DNA of 37,510 nt from an uncultured bacterium (lineage in GTDB: Bacteria > Bacillota_I > Bacilli_A > Izemoplasmatales > Hujiaoplasmataceae), in the NCBI GenBank assembly GCA_903844055.1, contig CAIMSF010000138.1, positions 1 through 37,510 of the forward strand, read 5' to 3'. Position 1 is the first letter of the stretch; each line of letters begins with the position of its first letter. The position numbers and the translations under genes were made by a program. Of this stretch, positions 12,488 to 29,560 are shown one piece after another. Under the pieces are notes generated by a model, which saw only the letters and a list, made by a program, of their open reading frames with translations, did no database searches and had not been told where the DNA came from.

Positions 12488-15073
12488 TCAGCGTTTGCGG
12501 TTGAGTTCGGCGACGACGTCGGCGAGGAGGTTCATCGCCTTGATCGGCGTGAGTTCGTTGACGTCGAGCTGCTTGAGTTGCTCGACGATCGGCGTGTACT
12601 CGAAGGGAGCGGCGGTTTCGGCCGCCTCGGCCTCCTCGAAGTTGAAGAGCGTCTTCTCCTGCGGCTTGATCACGTTGTAGCCGTGGTTCTTCTCGAGTTC
12701 GGCGAGGATCGCGTCGGCGCGGGCGACGAGCGCCGCGGGCAGTTTCGCGAGCCGGGCGACGTGGATCCCGTAGGAGCGGTCGGTCGGGCCGTCCTCGACC
12801 TTGTGGAGGAAGACGATCCCGCCCTTTTCCTCGCGGGCGAGGACATGGACGTTGTGGAGCGCCTTCAGGTCGTCCTCGAGATAGGTCAGTTCGTGGTAAT
12901 GGGTCGAGAACAGGATCTTCCCCTTGATCTTGTGGTGGGCGTATTCGATGATCGCCTGGGCGAGCGCCATGCCGTCGTAGGTGGCGGTGCCGCGGCCGAT
13001 CTCGTCGAACAGGATGAGCGACTGCGCGGTCGCGTTCTGGAGCGCGTAGTTGACTTCGAGCATCTCGACCATGAACGTCGATTTCCCGCCGGTGAGGTCG
13101 TCGGCGGCGCCGATGCGCGTGAAGATCTGGTCGAACAGGGGCAGCCTGGCGGCGTCGCAGGGGATGAAGCAGCCCATCTGCATCATGATGACGCTGACCG
13201 CGAGCTGCCGCATGTACGTCGATTTGCCGGACATGTTCGGACCGGTGATGAGCAGGATCGTGTTCTTCTCGGGCATGACGACGTCGTTCTTGACGTAGCG
13301 TTCGCCTTCGAGCATCTGCTCGACGACCGGATGGCGGCCGCCGACGATCTCGATCGAACGGGTCTCGACGATCGTCGGCCGGACGTAGCGGTGGTCCGCC
13401 GAAACGATCGAGAACGCGAGGACCATGTCGATCTCCGCGATGATGCGCGCGATCGCCTGGAGCTCGGCGGTCCGTTCCCGGACGGCGTCGCGCAGCTCGA
13501 CGAAGAGGTCGTACTCCATCTTCACGGCGTCCTCTTCGGATCCGACGATGAGCGTTTCCTTCTCGCGCAGGGCGGGGGTGACATACCGTTCGGAATTGGC
13601 GAGCGTCTGCTTGCGTTCGTAGCCGAACTCGTCCTTGACCAGGTCGAGCTGGCCTTTGGTGATTTCGATGTAGTAACCGAACACGCGGTTGTAGCCCACG
13701 CGCAATTTCTTGATGCCGGTGCGTTCGCGCTCGGCGCGTTCGAATTCCGCAAGCCAGTCGCGGCCGCCGACGGCGTCGCCGCGGAGCCGGTCGAGGAGCT
13801 CGGAGAAGCCGGGACGGATGATCCCGCCTTCCTTGACGGAGAGGGGCGGATCGCTTGTGATGGTCCGCTCGATCCGATCGGCCAAAGACGACAGGTCGCC
13901 CATCGGCGCGACCAGTTCGGCGGCGTAGGCGTCGTCAAGGCGTTCCATCCCGTCCTTGATCGCGGGCATCGCCCGAAGCGATCTCGCCAGGTTCACGAGG
14001 TCCTTCGCGTTCGCCGTGCCGAACGAGAGCCGCCCGACGATGCGCTCGAGGTCGTAGACGGACTTGAGCCCTTCGCGGATTTCCTCGCGGGCGACGAACC
14101 CCTCGATGAAGGCGTCGACGAGCGAGAAGCGCTTCTCGATCTTCGTGCGGTCGAGGAGCGGCCGCAGGATCGTCTGCTTCAGGTAGCGCGAGCCGATCGC
14201 CGTCTCGCATTGGTCGAGGAGCCAAAACAGGCTCCCCTTGCGGTTCTGGAAACGATAGGTTTCGAGCAGTTCGAGGTTCTTCATCGAGTTGGCGTCGATG
14301 CGGAGGTATCCCGCGGCGTCGAAACGCTGGATCTTCTGGAGATGGAGGAGTTCGGCCTTTTGGGTCCGGACCATGTAGTTGACGAGCCGGCCGAACGTCT
14401 CGAGCGAATCCTTGTCGTAGACTTCGGCGGCGAGCGGCCGGTACAAGGCCGGCAGCGCGACGTCGTCGGAGACCGTCACGGTGACGGGGTGGTCGGCGAA
14501 CTGGCGGCGCAGGAGCCGCTGGCTGAACCGCGAGCCGACGACGATCTCGCGGGCCTGCAGGTTCAGGATCTCGTTATGCATGAGGTCGGCGTCGCGGGGG
14601 GTCGAGACGAGGCAGTTCTGGCCGGTCGAGAGGTCGGCGTAGGCGAGGATGAAGCCCGTCTTCGTTTCCGTGACGGAGACGATGTAGTTGTTCGATTTGG
14701 CATCGACCGTCCCGGCGCCGACGATCGTGCCGGGCGTGACGAGCTTGATCACGTCGCGCTTGACGAGGCCTTTGGCGAGGGCGGGATCCTCGAGCTGCTC
14801 GACGACGCAGACCTTGAAGCCCTTCGCGACGAGCCGTTCGATGTAGAGGTCCGCCGCGTGGAACGGCACCCCGCACATCGGCACGCGCTCCGCCTGCCCG
14901 GCGTCGCGGCCGGTCAGGACGATCTCGAGTTCCTTCGAGGCGATCGCGGCGTCCCCGAAGAACATCTCGTAAAAGTCCCCAAGTCGAAAAAAGACTATAA
15001 AGTCCATATAGTCTTTTTTGATATCGAGATATTGTTGCATCATGGGGGTGAAGCCGTTCGTGTTCTTGTCCAT
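12488..15073 (-). CDS. mutS: DNA mismatch repair protein MutS
   Basis: FFRLGDFYEMFFGDA; ITGPNMSGKSTYMRQLAVSVIMMQMG; LFDEIGRGTATYDGMALAQAI. Confidence 0.98.
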   Translation of the reverse strand: MDKNTNGFTPMMQQYLDIKKDYMDFIVFFRLGDFYEMFFGDAAIASKELEIVLTGRDAGQAERVPMCGVPFHAADLYIERLVAKGFKVCVVEQLEDPALAKGLVKRDVIKLVTPGTIVGAGTVDAKSNNYIVSVTETKTGFILAYADLSTGQNCLVSTPRDADLMHNEILNLQAREIVVGSRFSQRLLRRQFADHPVTVTVSDDVALPALYRPLAAEVYDKDSLETFGRLVNYMVRTQKAELLHLQKIQRFDAAGYLRIDANSMKNLELLETYRFQNRKGSLFWLLDQCETAIGSRYLKQTILRPLLDRTKIEKRFSLVDAFIEGFVAREEIREGLKSVYDLERIVGRLSFGTANAKDLVNLARSLRAMPAIKDGMERLDDAYAAELVAPMGDLSSLADRIERTITSDPPLSVKEGGIIRPGFSELLDRLRGDAVGGRDWLAEFERAERERTGIKKLRVGYNRVFGYYIEITKGQLDLVKDEFGYERKQTLANSERYVTPALREKETLIVGSEEDAVKMEYDLFVELRDAVRERTAELQAIARIIAEIDMVLAFSIVSADHRYVRPTIVETRSIEIVGGRHPVVEQMLEGERYVKNDVVMPEKNTILLITGPNMSGKSTYMRQLAVSVIMMQMGCFIPCDAARLPLFDQIFTRIGAADDLTGGKSTFMVEMLEVNYALQNATAQSLILFDEIGRGTATYDGMALAQAIIEYAHHKIKGKILFSTHYHELTYLEDDLKALHNVHVLAREEKGGIVFLHKVEDGPTDRSYGIHVARLAKLPAALVARADAILAELEKNHGYNVIKPQEKTLFNFEEAEAAETAAPFEYTPIVEQLKQLDVNELTPIKAMNLLADVVAELNRKR
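14987..15019. repeat. Perfect 13-bp inverted repeat, terminator-like, inside the 5' part of mutS
   Basis: AAAAAAGACTATA-aagtcca-TATAGTCTTTTTT. Confidence 0.9.
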
Positions 15074-15108: not shown

Positions 15109-16593
15109 TTAGAATAGGTTGGCGATGAACGGGGGGAGGGATCCGGGCGTGAGGATGAAATAGTAATACGCGACCAACCCGGCAAAGCCGAGGACGGCGG
15201 CGCCGACGACGATGGCGAAGATGGTCCAGAACGCCTTCGTACGGCGCCGCTTGTTGTACTTGCGGATGATCTGGTTGATCTTCTCGTCGAGCAGCCCGCG
15301 CTCTTCATCGGAGAAATCCAGGCTTTCCGCCTGCGGGACCGGAATGCTCTTCTTGACGGGTTCGACGGCCGGGACGACGGCGGGAGCGGGTCCTTCCGGC
15401 TTGGCTTCCGGTTTCGGCTCCGGCTTGGGTTCCGGTTTCGGATCGGCCTTGGGTTCGGGTTTCGGTTCGGCCTTGGGTTCGGGTCTCGGCTCCGGTTTGG
15501 GTTCCGGTTTCGGCTCGGGCGCTGGTTCGGCCTTCGGTTCCGGCTTGGGTTCCGGTTTCGGCACCGGCTTGGGTTCCGGTTTCGGTTCGGGTTTGGTCTC
15601 GCGGACGGGAGCGGGCGGTTCGACTTCCTCTTCCTGGACGACGACAGCAACGGGGGCGACGGGCGCGGGCGCCGGCTCCGGCTTGACGTCCGCCTTGACC
15701 GGGGCGACGTATCCCTCGACCGGGATGTCCTGGTCGTTTTGGACGAAATCGATGCCGTCGATCACGACCGCGTCGAGATCGGCCGAGAGCGGGACCTGGT
15801 AGTTGTGGGCGTCGCGGGTCACTTCGACGTGATAGAGGTTGAGCGAGAAGACCATGAATTCGACCATGTCGCTCTTCTTCAGGTCGATCGAGATGTTGAA
15901 GCCCTTCTCCTTCGCGTAGATCTCGAGTTCGAGGACGGACTTGCCGTTGATCAGCTCGACTTCGGCGGGTGAGAGGCGGAACCGCTTGGCGAGGATGTCG
16001 ACGAGCTGGAACTTGTTGATGCGGCGGGGAATCTTGACGCCGTACTTCTCGCCGATGCCGCGGAGGTCGCCGAGCGTGCAAGAATGCACGAGGACGTCCT
16101 TCAGGATCGCGAGGTTGACGCCGTCGAGATATCCGGCGGGTTCGTAGAACAGGACGCCGAACTTCGCCATGAAGTCGCGGTAGGCGATCTTCTCGAAGTC
16201 GACCGCGTATTTGTATTTGAGCTTGTCGAGGTCGGAGACGAAGTTGTCCTTGATGCCGTAGAGGTCGCGGTTGAGGAACAGGATGTTGAAGAAGATCTCC
16301 TTGTAGCGCGCGGCGTCGAACTCAAGCGAGTACTCGTCGACCAGTTTCTCAAGCAGATAGAGCGAATACTCGTGGTATCCGCGGAGACGGTACTTGAGTT
16401 CGTCGGTATAGGTCTGGTAGACGCTCGTCTGGAAGACCTTCGGGTAGATGGTCTCCTTCAGGACGAACCGGTGGATGTACACCGGCACCTTGATCTTGTG
16501 GGCCGCGATGAGCGCGGCGAGATCTTCCGCGGGAATGACGGACAGCGTCTTCGAATAAGCGAAATAATCCTCGTTGGTTTTGAATTTGGCCAC
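15109..16593 (-). CDS. Uncharacterised tail-anchored protein ('X'): N-terminal Rho_N/SAP-like helix-extension-helix motifs, PEPK arm, C-terminal TM helix
   Basis: GTG start with AAGGGTG upstream. Motifs [33 protein letters not shown] and [40 protein letters not shown] repeats; [33 protein letters not shown]. Confidence 0.85.
15388..15687 (-). repeat. Degenerate 12-bp-unit tandem repeat encoding (Lys-Pro-Glu-Pro)n in protein X
   Basis: Recurrent ggcttgggttccggtttc-type units on the plus strand; translated [21 protein letters not shown]... Confidence 0.85.
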
Positions 16594-16727: not shown

Positions 16728-16756
16728 AGAAAAAGGCGGCCACCCGGGCCGCCCGT
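16728..16756 (-). terminator. Terminator after the ymcA-like gene
   Basis: Minus strand GGCGGCC-CGGGT-GGCCGCC followed by TTTTTC. Confidence 0.78.
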
Positions 16757-16759
16757 CGT

Positions 16760-17056
16760 TCAAATCCGCTTGATTCCGTCGTTGAGGATCCCCGCGACTT
16801 CCTGCAGGGCGTCGTCGAGTTCGTCCACCAGCGAGAGGTATTCGGCGACGGCGGGAGCGTCGGCCAGGTCCTCGAGCGCAGCGTCGTATTGAGCGCGAAG
16901 CCGCGCGGCGAGCTCCGAGCGACCGTCGAAAGCGGCGGCCACCAGACGTTTCTGAAGTGCCAGTAGAGCGCCGTATCTGGAGATCATTCCATCATCCGAA
17001 GCGATCGCTTCGGCCAGCTTTTTCAGACGCTCGACGAGATCCGACCCGCGGATCAT
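16760..17056 (-). CDS. YlbF/YmcA family protein (RicA/RicF-like Y-complex subunit)
   Basis: LVERLKKLAEAIASDDGMISRYGALLALQKRLVAAAFDG...YLSLVDELDDALQEVAGIL; located directly downstream of miaB as ymcA is in Bacillus. An alternative start at 17080 is possible. Confidence 0.7.
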   Translation of the reverse strand: MIRGSDLVERLKKLAEAIASDDGMISRYGALLALQKRLVAAAFDGRSELAARLRAQYDAALEDLADAPAVAEYLSLVDELDDALQEVAGILNDGIKRI

Positions 17057-17069
17057 CGCAAGCAGGCGC

Positions 17070-18509
17070 TCACCGGCCAAGGTGGATCAGCTCCCCGCCG
17101 AGGCTCCAGGTCTTCGCATCCGTGACGAGGACGTCGACGACCGTCCCGATCAGTCCGTCGGGACCGTCGAAATGCAGGATCTTGTTGTGTTCGGTATGGC
17201 CGGTGAGGTGTTTCGCACCGGTCGTGGACCGGCCTTCGACAAGCACCTTCGCGATGCGGCCGACGAACCGGCGGTTGCCTGCCAGGTAACCTTCGTTCAC
17301 CGCCAGGTTGAGGCGCTGGAGGCGTTCGTCCTTGACCGCGCGGGGCGTGTCGTCAAGGTATCCGGCGGCCGGCGTCCCGGACCTTGGCGAAAAGACGAAG
17401 GTATACGCGCCTTCGAATCCCGCCTTCGCGACGAGGTCGAGCGTCATCTGGAAATCCTCTTCCGTCTCGCCGGGAAACCCGACGATCAAGTCGGTCGTGA
17501 CCGACACGTCGGGGATCGCCGCCCGAAGCCGCGCGAGAAGCGCGAGGTATTGGGCCGCGCCGTACTTGCGGTTCATCGCGCGCAGGATCCGGTCGGAGCC
17601 CGACTGCACCGGCAGATGGACGTAGGGCATCAGGTTTCCGCCCTTGGCCAGGACGCCGATCAGCTCGTCGGAGAAATCCTTGGGGTGGGACGTCGTGAAG
17701 CGGATTCGTTCGATCGGCAACAGGCGCAGGCGCTCGAGCAGAGCGGCGAACGTCTCGTGCCGGTCGGAGAAATCGAGACCGTAGGAGTTGACGTTCTGAC
17801 CGAGCAGGGTGACCTCGCGGACGCCTTCGCGCGCGAGTGCGTCGACTTCCCCGACGATGTCATCGGGACGGCGGCTGCGCTCCTTTCCGCGGGTATACGG
17901 GACGATGCAGTAGGTGCAGAACTCGTCGCAGCCGAACATCACGCTGACCCAGGCGCGGAAGCCGTCCTGGCGCCGGCGCGGCACGTTCTCGACGATGTCG
18001 CCTTCGACGGAGCGGACCTCGACGACGCGTTCGTCGTGATAGGCGCGGTGGAGCATCGCCGGCAGGTCGTGGAGGTTGTGGGTGCCGAAGACGACGTCGA
18101 CCTGGTCGTAGGTCTTCAGGATCTTCGCGACGACCGCCTCTTCCTGCGGCATGCATCCGCCGACGGCGATTTTCATGCCAGGATGCCGTTCCTTGTAGAT
18201 CTTGATCCGTCCAAGTTCGCCGAACACCTTGTTTTCGGCGTTTTGACGAATCGCGCAGGTATTGAACACGACCAGGTCGGCGTGCTCGGCGTCTTCCGCG
18301 GGAACGAAACCGCATGTCGCGAGCAGGCCGGCGATCTTCTCGCTGTCGGCCTCGTTCGCCTGACAGCCGTACGTATCGATCAGATACGTCTTGCCGGCGG
18401 CGAATCCCGCCAGTCCGGCGGGCAGTTCGTACGCACAAAAGGCGGAAGCGGTCTTGGACCGTTTCCGCGCTTGGGCGAGATCTGGTTTGATGGGTTCCGG
18501 TTTGCTCAC
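17070..18509 (-). CDS. miaB: tRNA-2-methylthio-N6-dimethylallyladenosine synthase
   Basis: YLIDTYGCQANEADSEKIAGLL; FGCDEFCTYCIVPYTRGKERSR (radical SAM CxxxCxxC); TRAM domain C-terminus. GTG start. Confidence 0.96.
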   Translation of the reverse strand: MSKPEPIKPDLAQARKRSKTASAFCAYELPAGLAGFAAGKTYLIDTYGCQANEADSEKIAGLLATCGFVPAEDAEHADLVVFNTCAIRQNAENKVFGELGRIKIYKERHPGMKIAVGGCMPQEEAVVAKILKTYDQVDVVFGTHNLHDLPAMLHRAYHDERVVEVRSVEGDIVENVPRRRQDGFRAWVSVMFGCDEFCTYCIVPYTRGKERSRRPDDIVGEVDALAREGVREVTLLGQNVNSYGLDFSDRHETFAALLERLRLLPIERIRFTTSHPKDFSDELIGVLAKGGNLMPYVHLPVQSGSDRILRAMNRKYGAAQYLALLARLRAAIPDVSVTTDLIVGFPGETEEDFQMTLDLVAKAGFEGAYTFVFSPRSGTPAAGYLDDTPRAVKDERLQRLNLAVNEGYLAGNRRFVGRIAKVLVEGRSTTGAKHLTGHTEHNKILHFDGPDGLIGTVVDVLVTDAKTWSLGGELIHLGR

Positions 18510-26895: not shown

Positions 26896-28611
26896 CTAGA
26901 GAAGCATCAGTTTCCCGATGGCTTCCTTGTGATTGAGCCGGGCGGCGGCCTCGAGCAACAGACGGCCCGCCTTCGGATCGGCGTTGACGAACGAATTGCC
27001 CTCGAGGAGCAGGCAGCCCTTCTCGAAGAGCGCGTCGGCGTTCTCGCGATCGGCCGCGGCGCGGTCGAGCCACTCCTTCGCGGCCGCAAAATCCGCCTCC
27101 TTGAGCAATCGGTACATCTCGACCATCGCCTTCGTGAGGCCGGCCTCGGCGGCCGACTCGAACCAGTAGCGGGCGCGCCGCAACGAAGCTTCCGTCCCGC
27201 GGCCGAGCCGATGGATCAAGCCGAGGTAGTACATCGCGTAGGCATGGTTCGACGGATTGTGTGCCGGATCCTCGACATAGGAGACGAACAACTCGCGCGC
27301 GGTGGTCCAAGCCTGATCGGCTTTCTTGCCTTTGAGTTTGCGGTCCGGCAGTTCTTCAAAAAGCATCGAGGCGTATTTGTACTTGGCGCCGAGGTTGCCC
27401 GCCTCGATCGCCTTCTTGAAATGCTTCTCGGCCTCATCGAAATCCTTCGGGACGCCGACCCCCTTGTCGTGGAAGATGCCGAGCCAGTAATGGGCGGGCG
27501 CATACCCGGCCTTCGCGGCCGTCTCCATGTAGTTGAAGGCGAGCTGGGCGGAAGCCCCCTCGACGAGATTGCGGTAGTTGAGGAGTCCCAGATCCATGGT
27601 CGCCTCGGGCTCTTGCAGACGGGCGGCGTCCATGTACCAGCGCTTCGCCTCCTCGTTGTCGACGGGCATGCCGAGTCCGAGGCGGGCGGCGTCGCCGAGC
27701 CGCGTCATCGCGAGTGCGTGACGTTCCTGCGCGGCTTCCTTGAGCAGGCGTCTGGCCTCGTCGCAATCGGTCTTGACACCCTGTCCGTACAGAAGGGCGA
27801 CGCCATAGCCGTATTTCCCGACGGCATCGCCGCGGTCGAGCAGCATCTTGTAGTAGAACGCGGCCTTCTCATGGTTGACCGTCGTGACGTCGGACCCTTC
27901 GCGGTAGTCGTTCGCGACCGACCGGAGGCTATGGACATCGCCCGTCTTCGCGAGCAGTTCGCGGTAATAGAACGCCATCTCGCGGAGATGCAGACGCGAC
28001 TTCTTGAGCAGCCACGGGTGCTTCCCGGCGGCATAGATCTCTTCGAGGGTGCGCATCGCGTCGGCGTTTCCGCCGGTCGCGCCGCGGTCGAGCCAGCCGA
28101 ACGCCGGTTCGGGATTCTTCTTGTAGGCGGCATCCATCGTCATCAAGAGACCGAGCTGGAAACAGCCGGCCGCATCGTTCTGATCGGCGGCTTTCCTGAA
28201 CCATTCCTTCGCCTTCTCGGGATCCTTCTTCGTCCCGACGCCGTTCTTGTAGCAGAGCCCGACGGCGTCGTAAGCCTCGACGTCCGACAGCTTCGCGGCG
28301 CCGAGATACATCTTGAAGGCCTTGGCCTTGTTCTTGCGCACGCCCACGCCGGTCTCAAAGAGGCGGGCGAGCGCCAAAAAGGCGGGCGCATGGAGAAACG
28401 CCTTCGCTTTCTCGTAATTGACGACGGCGGCCTTGTAGTCGCCCTTGGCGGCGAAATATTGGCCGAGGTTGTGGTATCCGACCGGATTGTCGAGGTCGGC
28501 CGCCTGCTTGTAGTAGGTATAGGCGAGTTCGCGGTTGACGGCTCGGCCGATGCCGAAGAAATAGGCGTCGCCGGTATCGTTCAGCGTTTTCGGATTCGCA
28601 TTGTCTGCCAT
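26896..28611 (-). CDS. Sel1-repeat protein (long, 571 aa), no signal peptide
   Basis: Many Sel1-type repeats, e.g. AYDAVGLCYKNGVGTKKDPEKAKEWFRKAADQND, APAHYWLGIFHDKGVGVPKDFDEAEKHFKKAIEAGN. Confidence 0.92.
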   Translation of the reverse strand: MADNANPKTLNDTGDAYFFGIGRAVNRELAYTYYKQAADLDNPVGYHNLGQYFAAKGDYKAAVVNYEKAKAFLHAPAFLALARLFETGVGVRKNKAKAFKMYLGAAKLSDVEAYDAVGLCYKNGVGTKKDPEKAKEWFRKAADQNDAAGCFQLGLLMTMDAAYKKNPEPAFGWLDRGATGGNADAMRTLEEIYAAGKHPWLLKKSRLHLREMAFYYRELLAKTGDVHSLRSVANDYREGSDVTTVNHEKAAFYYKMLLDRGDAVGKYGYGVALLYGQGVKTDCDEARRLLKEAAQERHALAMTRLGDAARLGLGMPVDNEEAKRWYMDAARLQEPEATMDLGLLNYRNLVEGASAQLAFNYMETAAKAGYAPAHYWLGIFHDKGVGVPKDFDEAEKHFKKAIEAGNLGAKYKYASMLFEELPDRKLKGKKADQAWTTARELFVSYVEDPAHNPSNHAYAMYYLGLIHRLGRGTEASLRRARYWFESAAEAGLTKAMVEMYRLLKEADFAAAKEWLDRAAADRENADALFEKGCLLLEGNSFVNADPKAGRLLLEAAARLNHKEAIGKLMLL

Positions 28612-28612
28612 G

Positions 28613-29560
28613 TCAGTACCCCCGGAGGCCGACGAGTTCGGCCGCCGCTTCGGCATTCTTGGCCTTCGCGGCCTGCGCGTACCAGGAAGCGGCCGCCACC
28701 GCCGAGGATTTCACGCCGTCGCCCGCCTCGCACTTGCGTCCGACCGCGAGCATCGCGGTCGCATCGCCGAGCGCGGCGGCGCGGAGGGCAAGGTCGTAAG
28801 CCGCCTTGGCGTCCTTCTTCCAGCCGCGTCCGGTCTCGGCCGCCTTCATCAAGAGCAGGAGGGAAGAGGCGTCGCCTTCGTTGCCGGCGATCTGCAGATA
28901 CGGGATCGCCCGTTCGGGCCGGTCCGTCTGGAACAGCTCGCGGCCGATCTGCGCGACATCCTGGGTCGTACGGGCGTCGGTCTTGCTCTTGGTGCCGATC
29001 AGACGGAATTGGTTCATCGCGTCGGGAGAACCGAGCGCGAGCGCCTTGTTGAGCCATGAAAAGGCCGATTCCGGGCTTTTCGCGACACCCTTGCCTTCCA
29101 GATAGGCCATCCCGATGCGGTAGGTGGCGTAGGGATTCTGACGCTTCGCGAGCTCGACGTAGGTGGCGAGCGCCTTCTGCTCGTTCTTGGCGACGCCCTT
29201 GCCGGTCTCGAGGCATTCGGCTTCCTTGAGTGCGGCTTCGGGATCGCCCTTGGCGGCGCCGGCGGCGTAATAGTCGTAGGCCTTGCCGAGGTCCTGTTCG
29301 ACGCCGCGTCCTTCTTCGTAGCAGCGGCCGCACATGTACAGGCTTCTGACCTCGAGTTCCATCGCCGAACGGCGGAAACAGTCGAAGGCGTAGGCCGGAT
29401 CGGGTTTGCCGGCGTGCTCCCCAAAGGAAACCATCCCGAGATAATACAATGCCTCGGGATCGTTCTTCTTGGCCAGTTTGCGGAAGATCGGGAGCGCCCG
29501 TTCATATTGCCGGACCTCGTATGCCTTGATCGCTTCGATGATGATCGCGTCGCGTTCCAT
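28613..29560 (-). CDS. Sel1-repeat protein (short, 315 aa), no signal peptide
   Basis: SLYMCGRCYEEGRGVEQDLGKAYDYYAAGAAKGD and similar; its stop is 1 nt from the ATG of the next Sel1 gene. Confidence 0.92.
   Translation of the reverse strand: MERDAIIIEAIKAYEVRQYERALPIFRKLAKKNDPEALYYLGMVSFGEHAGKPDPAYAFDCFRRSAMELEVRSLYMCGRCYEEGRGVEQDLGKAYDYYAAGAAKGDPEAALKEAECLETGKGVAKNEQKALATYVELAKRQNPYATYRIGMAYLEGKGVAKSPESAFSWLNKALALGSPDAMNQFRLIGTKSKTDARTTQDVAQIGRELFQTDRPERAIPYLQIAGNEGDASSLLLLMKAAETGRGWKKDAKAAYDLALRAAALGDATAMLAVGRKCEAGDGVKSSAVAAASWYAQAAKAKNAEAAAELVGLRGY

Follow-up and report, generated by a model that had tools for sequence, protein, structure and literature searches.

A conserved protein family with Rho_N-type units and a predicted C-terminal membrane anchor, a candidate nucleic-acid tether in wall-less bacteria

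Overview

Protein X, encoded in the window analysed here (the whole stretch of DNA, 37,510 nucleotides), belongs to a conserved, unnamed protein family of wall-less bacteria (Acholeplasma, Izemoplasma and their kin). The reading that we favour, with a probability of about 0.6, is that X is a tail-anchored inner-membrane protein: its C-terminal helix would fix it in the membrane with the N-terminus inside, a flexible spacer would present tandem helix-extension-helix (HeH) units of the Rho_N type to the cytoplasm, and these units, judging from their fold, would bind nucleic acid and keep it close to the membrane. How bacteria hold the chromosome or mRNA at the membrane is an old question, and few dedicated proteins are known. 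With its fixed locus and its conservation across Acholeplasma and Izemoplasma relatives, X is a direct candidate for such tethering, and in wall-less bacteria it may keep nucleic acid at the inner face of the membrane. The proposal is testable by binding assays, CLIP or ChIP, and localisation in culturable Acholeplasma.

Three parts make up the protein, as seen in the sequence and in an AlphaFold2 model (Table 1): a head that is all helices, an arm of (KPEP)n and a membrane helix at the C-terminus. Hydropathy, repeats and the model all bear out the original prediction of a three-part reading frame with one C-terminal helix. Alignment with homologues indicates that the start residue is common to the relatives of X.

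Table 1. Coordinates of protein X, its parts and its neighbours in the window
Feature	Position	Strand	Remarks
Protein X	15109..16593	minus	494 aa; GTG start at 16593, stop at 15109
HeH unit a	16435..16530	minus	aa 22-53; helix-extension-helix in model
Possible HeH-like unit b, doubtful	16273..16362	minus	aa 78-107; two helices in model
HeH unit c	15976..16080	minus	aa 172-206; model, conservation, Rho_N match in relatives
HeH unit d	15838..15942	minus	aa 218-252; model, conservation, profile match to unit c
Spacer arm	15319..15693	minus	aa 301-425; tandem-repeat core 15395-15596
Basic juxtamembrane helix	15235..15309	minus	aa 429-453
C-terminal membrane helix	15160..15234	minus	aa 454-478; hydropathy
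Short outer tail	15112..15159	minus	aa 479-494; about 15 residues, no K, R, D or E
mutS	12488..15073	minus	35 bp downstream of X
Terminator-like hairpin	16734..16754	minus	after the YmcA/YlbF-like gene, upstream of X
YmcA/YlbF-type gene	16760..17080	minus	upstream of X; Com_YlbF 1.6e-8

Distribution of the family

Homologues of X occur in 55 of the 61 relatives, in a matching position of the gene order and with similarity that persists down to about 32% identity, so the reading frame is not a chance one. A profile search extended the family to 71 of 296 genomes sampled from the class, spread over seven family groups and reaching other orders, among them genomes that we take to be Acholeplasma brassicae and A. 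palmae. Among named records, the closest copies carry the labels Izemoplasmatales, Tenericutes, Bacilli, Bacillota and Acholeplasmataceae. The small genomes sampled from families f6 and f17, which we guess to be Mycoplasma- or Spiroplasma-like, had no X.

Genomes that carry X usually have one such gene at a fixed locus, and some have a distant second copy. These second copies have the layout of X and lie at other loci (L060-L062 and L103-L108, in some genomes of families f1 and f3); genome G055 carries such a paralogue (L103) elsewhere, while its mutS locus is without X. The genes next to the paralogues (ketopantoate reductase, subtilase, M29 peptidase) gave no functional hint. A literature search limited to open-access papers found no description of the family. 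The domain is known, as are membrane-tethered nucleic-acid binders; their combination in a conserved family, as predicted here, was not found described in these papers.

The helical head

The AlphaFold2 analysis (10 sequences) gave a confident all-helical head (pLDDT 81, pTM 0.76) and a very confident tandem HeH region (pLDDT 92). All three segments that had been picked out from the sequence (aa ~20-53, ~172-206 and ~218-252) are helix-extension-helix in the model and of the size of HeH units (~35 residues). Comparison of X-family sub-alignments by hhalign related units c and d with 95% probability and units a and c with 81%, shuffled-column controls giving at most about 5% (below 6%), and unit a, formerly a weaker third candidate, can now be placed beside the other two. 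Unit b reached 10% to c and 13% to d. There is thus good support for three related HeH units, with a joined to the others by way of c, but a fourth is doubtful. Compared with the Rho_N tails of S2, L20 and membrane proteins of the lineage, described below, units c and d scored 96% and 97%, and unit a 3% (controls below 2%).

Pfam Rho_N (PF07498), the N-terminal HeH domain of the terminator Rho, is matched by 40 of 44 X-family heads, the best at 9.3e-11. Units c and d provide the likeness, and four heads score above the curated 24.9-bit cut-off (L080, 31.8; L081, 33.2; L085, 26.0; L096, 45.8). X alone has no significant Pfam match, Rho_N included, and it does align with the members that match. 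The HeH assignment thus stands at the level of the family, by Rho_N matches and by the relatedness of the repeats, but not by a match of X itself. The family differs from Rho in having three related units rather than one, together with a C-terminal membrane anchor; neither a RecA-type ATPase nor a cold-shock domain was matched in Pfam by the X-family proteins scanned.

Units c and d are the best-conserved part of X among 47 aligned members (relatives and named records). Across the 44 diverse heads, invariance is limited to P189 and R191, both in unit c, and K183 and K194 (unit c) and S235, L238 and K240 (unit d) are conserved in at least 90%. Net charge is positive for unit c in most members (median +3.5) and differs widely between members for units a and d; the stretch between a and c is net negative.

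Structure prediction yielded HeH shapes, but Foldseek against the PDB returned nothing at E <= 0.001 for either the head or the tandem HeH region, the 35-residue units probably being too short, and the whole head had no significant match among viral structures. The best hit of the head in a profile search of solved structures was the Ku70 SAP region, a weak match (E 0.035); LC3-type matches of the tandem region in the same kind of search were rejected as chance matches. As for the HeH-type profiles, Rho_N was matched above its cut-off by some family members, and HeH/LEM matches stayed under theirs (17.6 against 28.9 bits).

Arm, anchor and orientation

Tandem Repeats Finder identified 8.4 copies of a 24-bp unit in the core of the arm, encoding (KPEP)n. 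Of the regions measured, the arm is one of the least conserved, half its columns being empty on average in the 47 aligned members. Spacer length ranges from 42 to 527 residues in the orthologues that bear a membrane helix (66 complete distinct orthologues examined), and the spacer is acidic in most relatives, with a median net charge of -22.5. Its kind also varies: PEPK in X, acidic in most members, coiled in some, nearly absent in family f3 and built of List_Bact repeats in A. palmae. The long spacer noted originally is therefore present, but its TonB-like, rigid PEPK make-up is particular to this genome and not to the family. KPEP matches to PspC and TonB models had raised a TonB or surface-protein reading of X, which was rejected because no signal peptide is seen, the anchor lies at the C-terminus and the repeats lack conservation. 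Another protein of the same genome has a long run of pure (KPEP)n (L002:1468-2673, contig C203), where the run is followed by small-domain repeats (FRLKASNGE / FKLKASNGE) and the gene adjoins an ABC transporter gene.

A single segment of X stands out strongly in the hydropathy analysis, with a maximum of 2.43 over the 19 residues from residue 457, and there is no signal-like helix at the N-terminus. KRRRTK precedes the membrane helix; the motif of the basic juxtamembrane helix, LLDEKINxIIKKYxK, recurs in almost every member of the window's own family, and a related basic helix is found in the sister family f2. A membrane helix follows the head in 60 of the 66 complete distinct orthologues, and in 57 of these 60 the charge is more positive before the helix than after it. 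From hydropathy and charge, X is predicted to be tail-anchored, with a single C-terminal helix, a short outer tail and the positive side inside, in agreement with the N-in topology first proposed.

Tails of 30-59 aa are frequent in Acholeplasma-type relatives, some of which show additional hydrophobic segments (for instance L087 and L091 of family f12). Six of the 66 orthologues lack a membrane helix in the reading frame (L041, L042, L084, L089, L094 and L099). L041 and L042 have a His-rich stretch near the C-terminus instead, and L099, which is followed by a separate acidic ORF, may be split into two ORFs.

Rho_N tails on other proteins and the possible ligand

Searching the genomes for Rho_N revealed that ribosomal protein S2 of the window's own genome (L116:1658-2644, contig C104) carries a C-terminal Rho_N unit on an A/P/E/K-rich arm, with 34.3 bits. 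The tail is present on S2 in most relatives read (25 loci besides L116), and one S2 reading frame (L148) ends without it. Ribosomal protein L20 has the same kind of tail in f3 and several other families (14 loci). At seven further loci Rho_N units sit on other proteins: a membrane protein with several helices, the ATPase of an ABC transporter, a coiled protein anchored at its N-terminus, a sigma-70 factor bearing two N-terminal units and, with a match below the cut-off, FtsH. The multi-helix membrane carriers appear HdeD/DUF308-like in our own reading, Pfam naming only Rho_N there. Because Rho_N tails are also present in genomes without X, they do not depend on it. Open-access papers, to which the search was limited, yielded no description of the S2 and L20 tails, which offer a second, independent system for testing the same module.

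The S2 and L20 tails share with X the HeH unit, the P/E/K/A-rich arm and the lineage; they are ribosomal and have one unit, whereas X is membrane-anchored and has several. Since the same domain sits on similar arms on S2 and L20 in the same lineage, RNA (mRNA or polysomes) is by analogy somewhat more likely than the chromosome to be the ligand of X. Tethering of nucleic acid is favoured by the conserved basic residues R191, K183, K194 and K240 of the HeH units. Counted against it are the missing Pfam match of X itself, the lack of a solved relative, the acidic spacers, the six anchorless orthologues of 66 and the ability of HeH folds to bind protein.

Were the units to bind DNA, X would be a nucleoid tether that fixes the chromosome at the membrane, possibly standing in for Noc, which is absent from these lineages. 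This is a possible reading, if not a probable one. The HeH/LEM inner nuclear membrane proteins of eukaryotes combine an HeH-type head with a transmembrane helix and face chromatin; X has a similar layout, although the organisms and the head differ and the analogy is functional only. No genome bearing X was above the Noc cut-off, and most have a single ParB, a result compatible with replacement of Noc by X but confounded by phylogeny, as Noc absence follows the phylogeny and is common to several families without X. The Ku70 SAP region, the best match among solved structures, would point to DNA, but the match is weak, and the same domain family on ribosomal proteins in these genomes favours RNA. 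A similar layout is seen in Rv3852 of Mycobacterium tuberculosis, described as a membrane-anchored nucleoid-associated DNA-binding protein with a C-terminal transmembrane helix, confined to M. tuberculosis and close relatives and annotated as H-NS (PMC8233713). By description only, the two are alike in the C-terminal transmembrane anchor, and the portion of the paper used for the comparison reports no HeH units for Rv3852 (PMC8233713).

Returning to tethering of RNA, a broader and rather speculative form of it, to which we give a low likelihood, is that the HeH module has spread on disordered arms over S2, L20, X, HdeD-like proteins, the ABC ATPase and the sigma factor, and physically links ribosomes, membrane and nucleic acid, with X as the membrane hub that would tether polysomes or mRNA.

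Not every HeH fold binds nucleic acid, and some bind proteins, the binding of BAF by LEM being an example; X could on this ground be a membrane scaffold unrelated to nucleic acid. The widely varying charge of units a and d, the net negative region between a and c and the absence of a nucleic-acid-binding neighbour in Foldseek are in line with such a role. It is nevertheless unlikely in view of the conserved basic residues in the HeH units, of Rho_N as the closest sequence match and of the attachment of the same domain to ribosomal proteins.

Gene order around mutS

X stands at the head of the mutS-mutL-miaA cluster, as was originally noted, with a terminator-like hairpin upstream. Its place is between miaB/ymcA and mutS in the window's family, in family f3 and at most of the f12, f16 and f22 loci read, and in nearly all the genomes read that possess both genes it is found directly upstream of mutS. 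Homologues are thus kept next to mutS at most loci, but not in f2, where in the genomes read X is found between miaB and miaA, and a mutS query gave weak MutS2-like partial matches or nothing. At the f2 loci L047-L050, L055 and L056, mutS and mutL are apparently gone, and neither ymcA nor ymdB was matched at the X locus. Conversely, genus g18 of f3 and genome G055 keep ymcA-mutS with no X between them. X did not depend on the presence of mutS and mutL in this survey of f2, g18 and G055; being kept without these genes and lost beside mutS, it owes its position to inherited gene order, which is no proof of a shared pathway. The link between X and mutS is positional only, and a functional tie to mismatch repair is not supported. 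The idea that X is a mismatch-repair accessory recruiting MutS/MutL to DNA or membrane, suggested by its place directly upstream of mutS, is contradicted by these gene losses and is highly improbable.

RNase Y and a YmcA/YlbF-type protein are encoded nearby, as the original prediction pointed out, but having RNase Y, YmdB, MiaB and YmcA near X is usual for the gene order of this group. Each of YmcA, YmdB and MiaB is absent from beside X in some relatives, so the neighbourhood speaks only weakly for a link to RNase Y. Elsewhere in the window, two neighbouring Sel1-repeat proteins are encoded on the minus strand, at 26896-28656 and 28613-29560.
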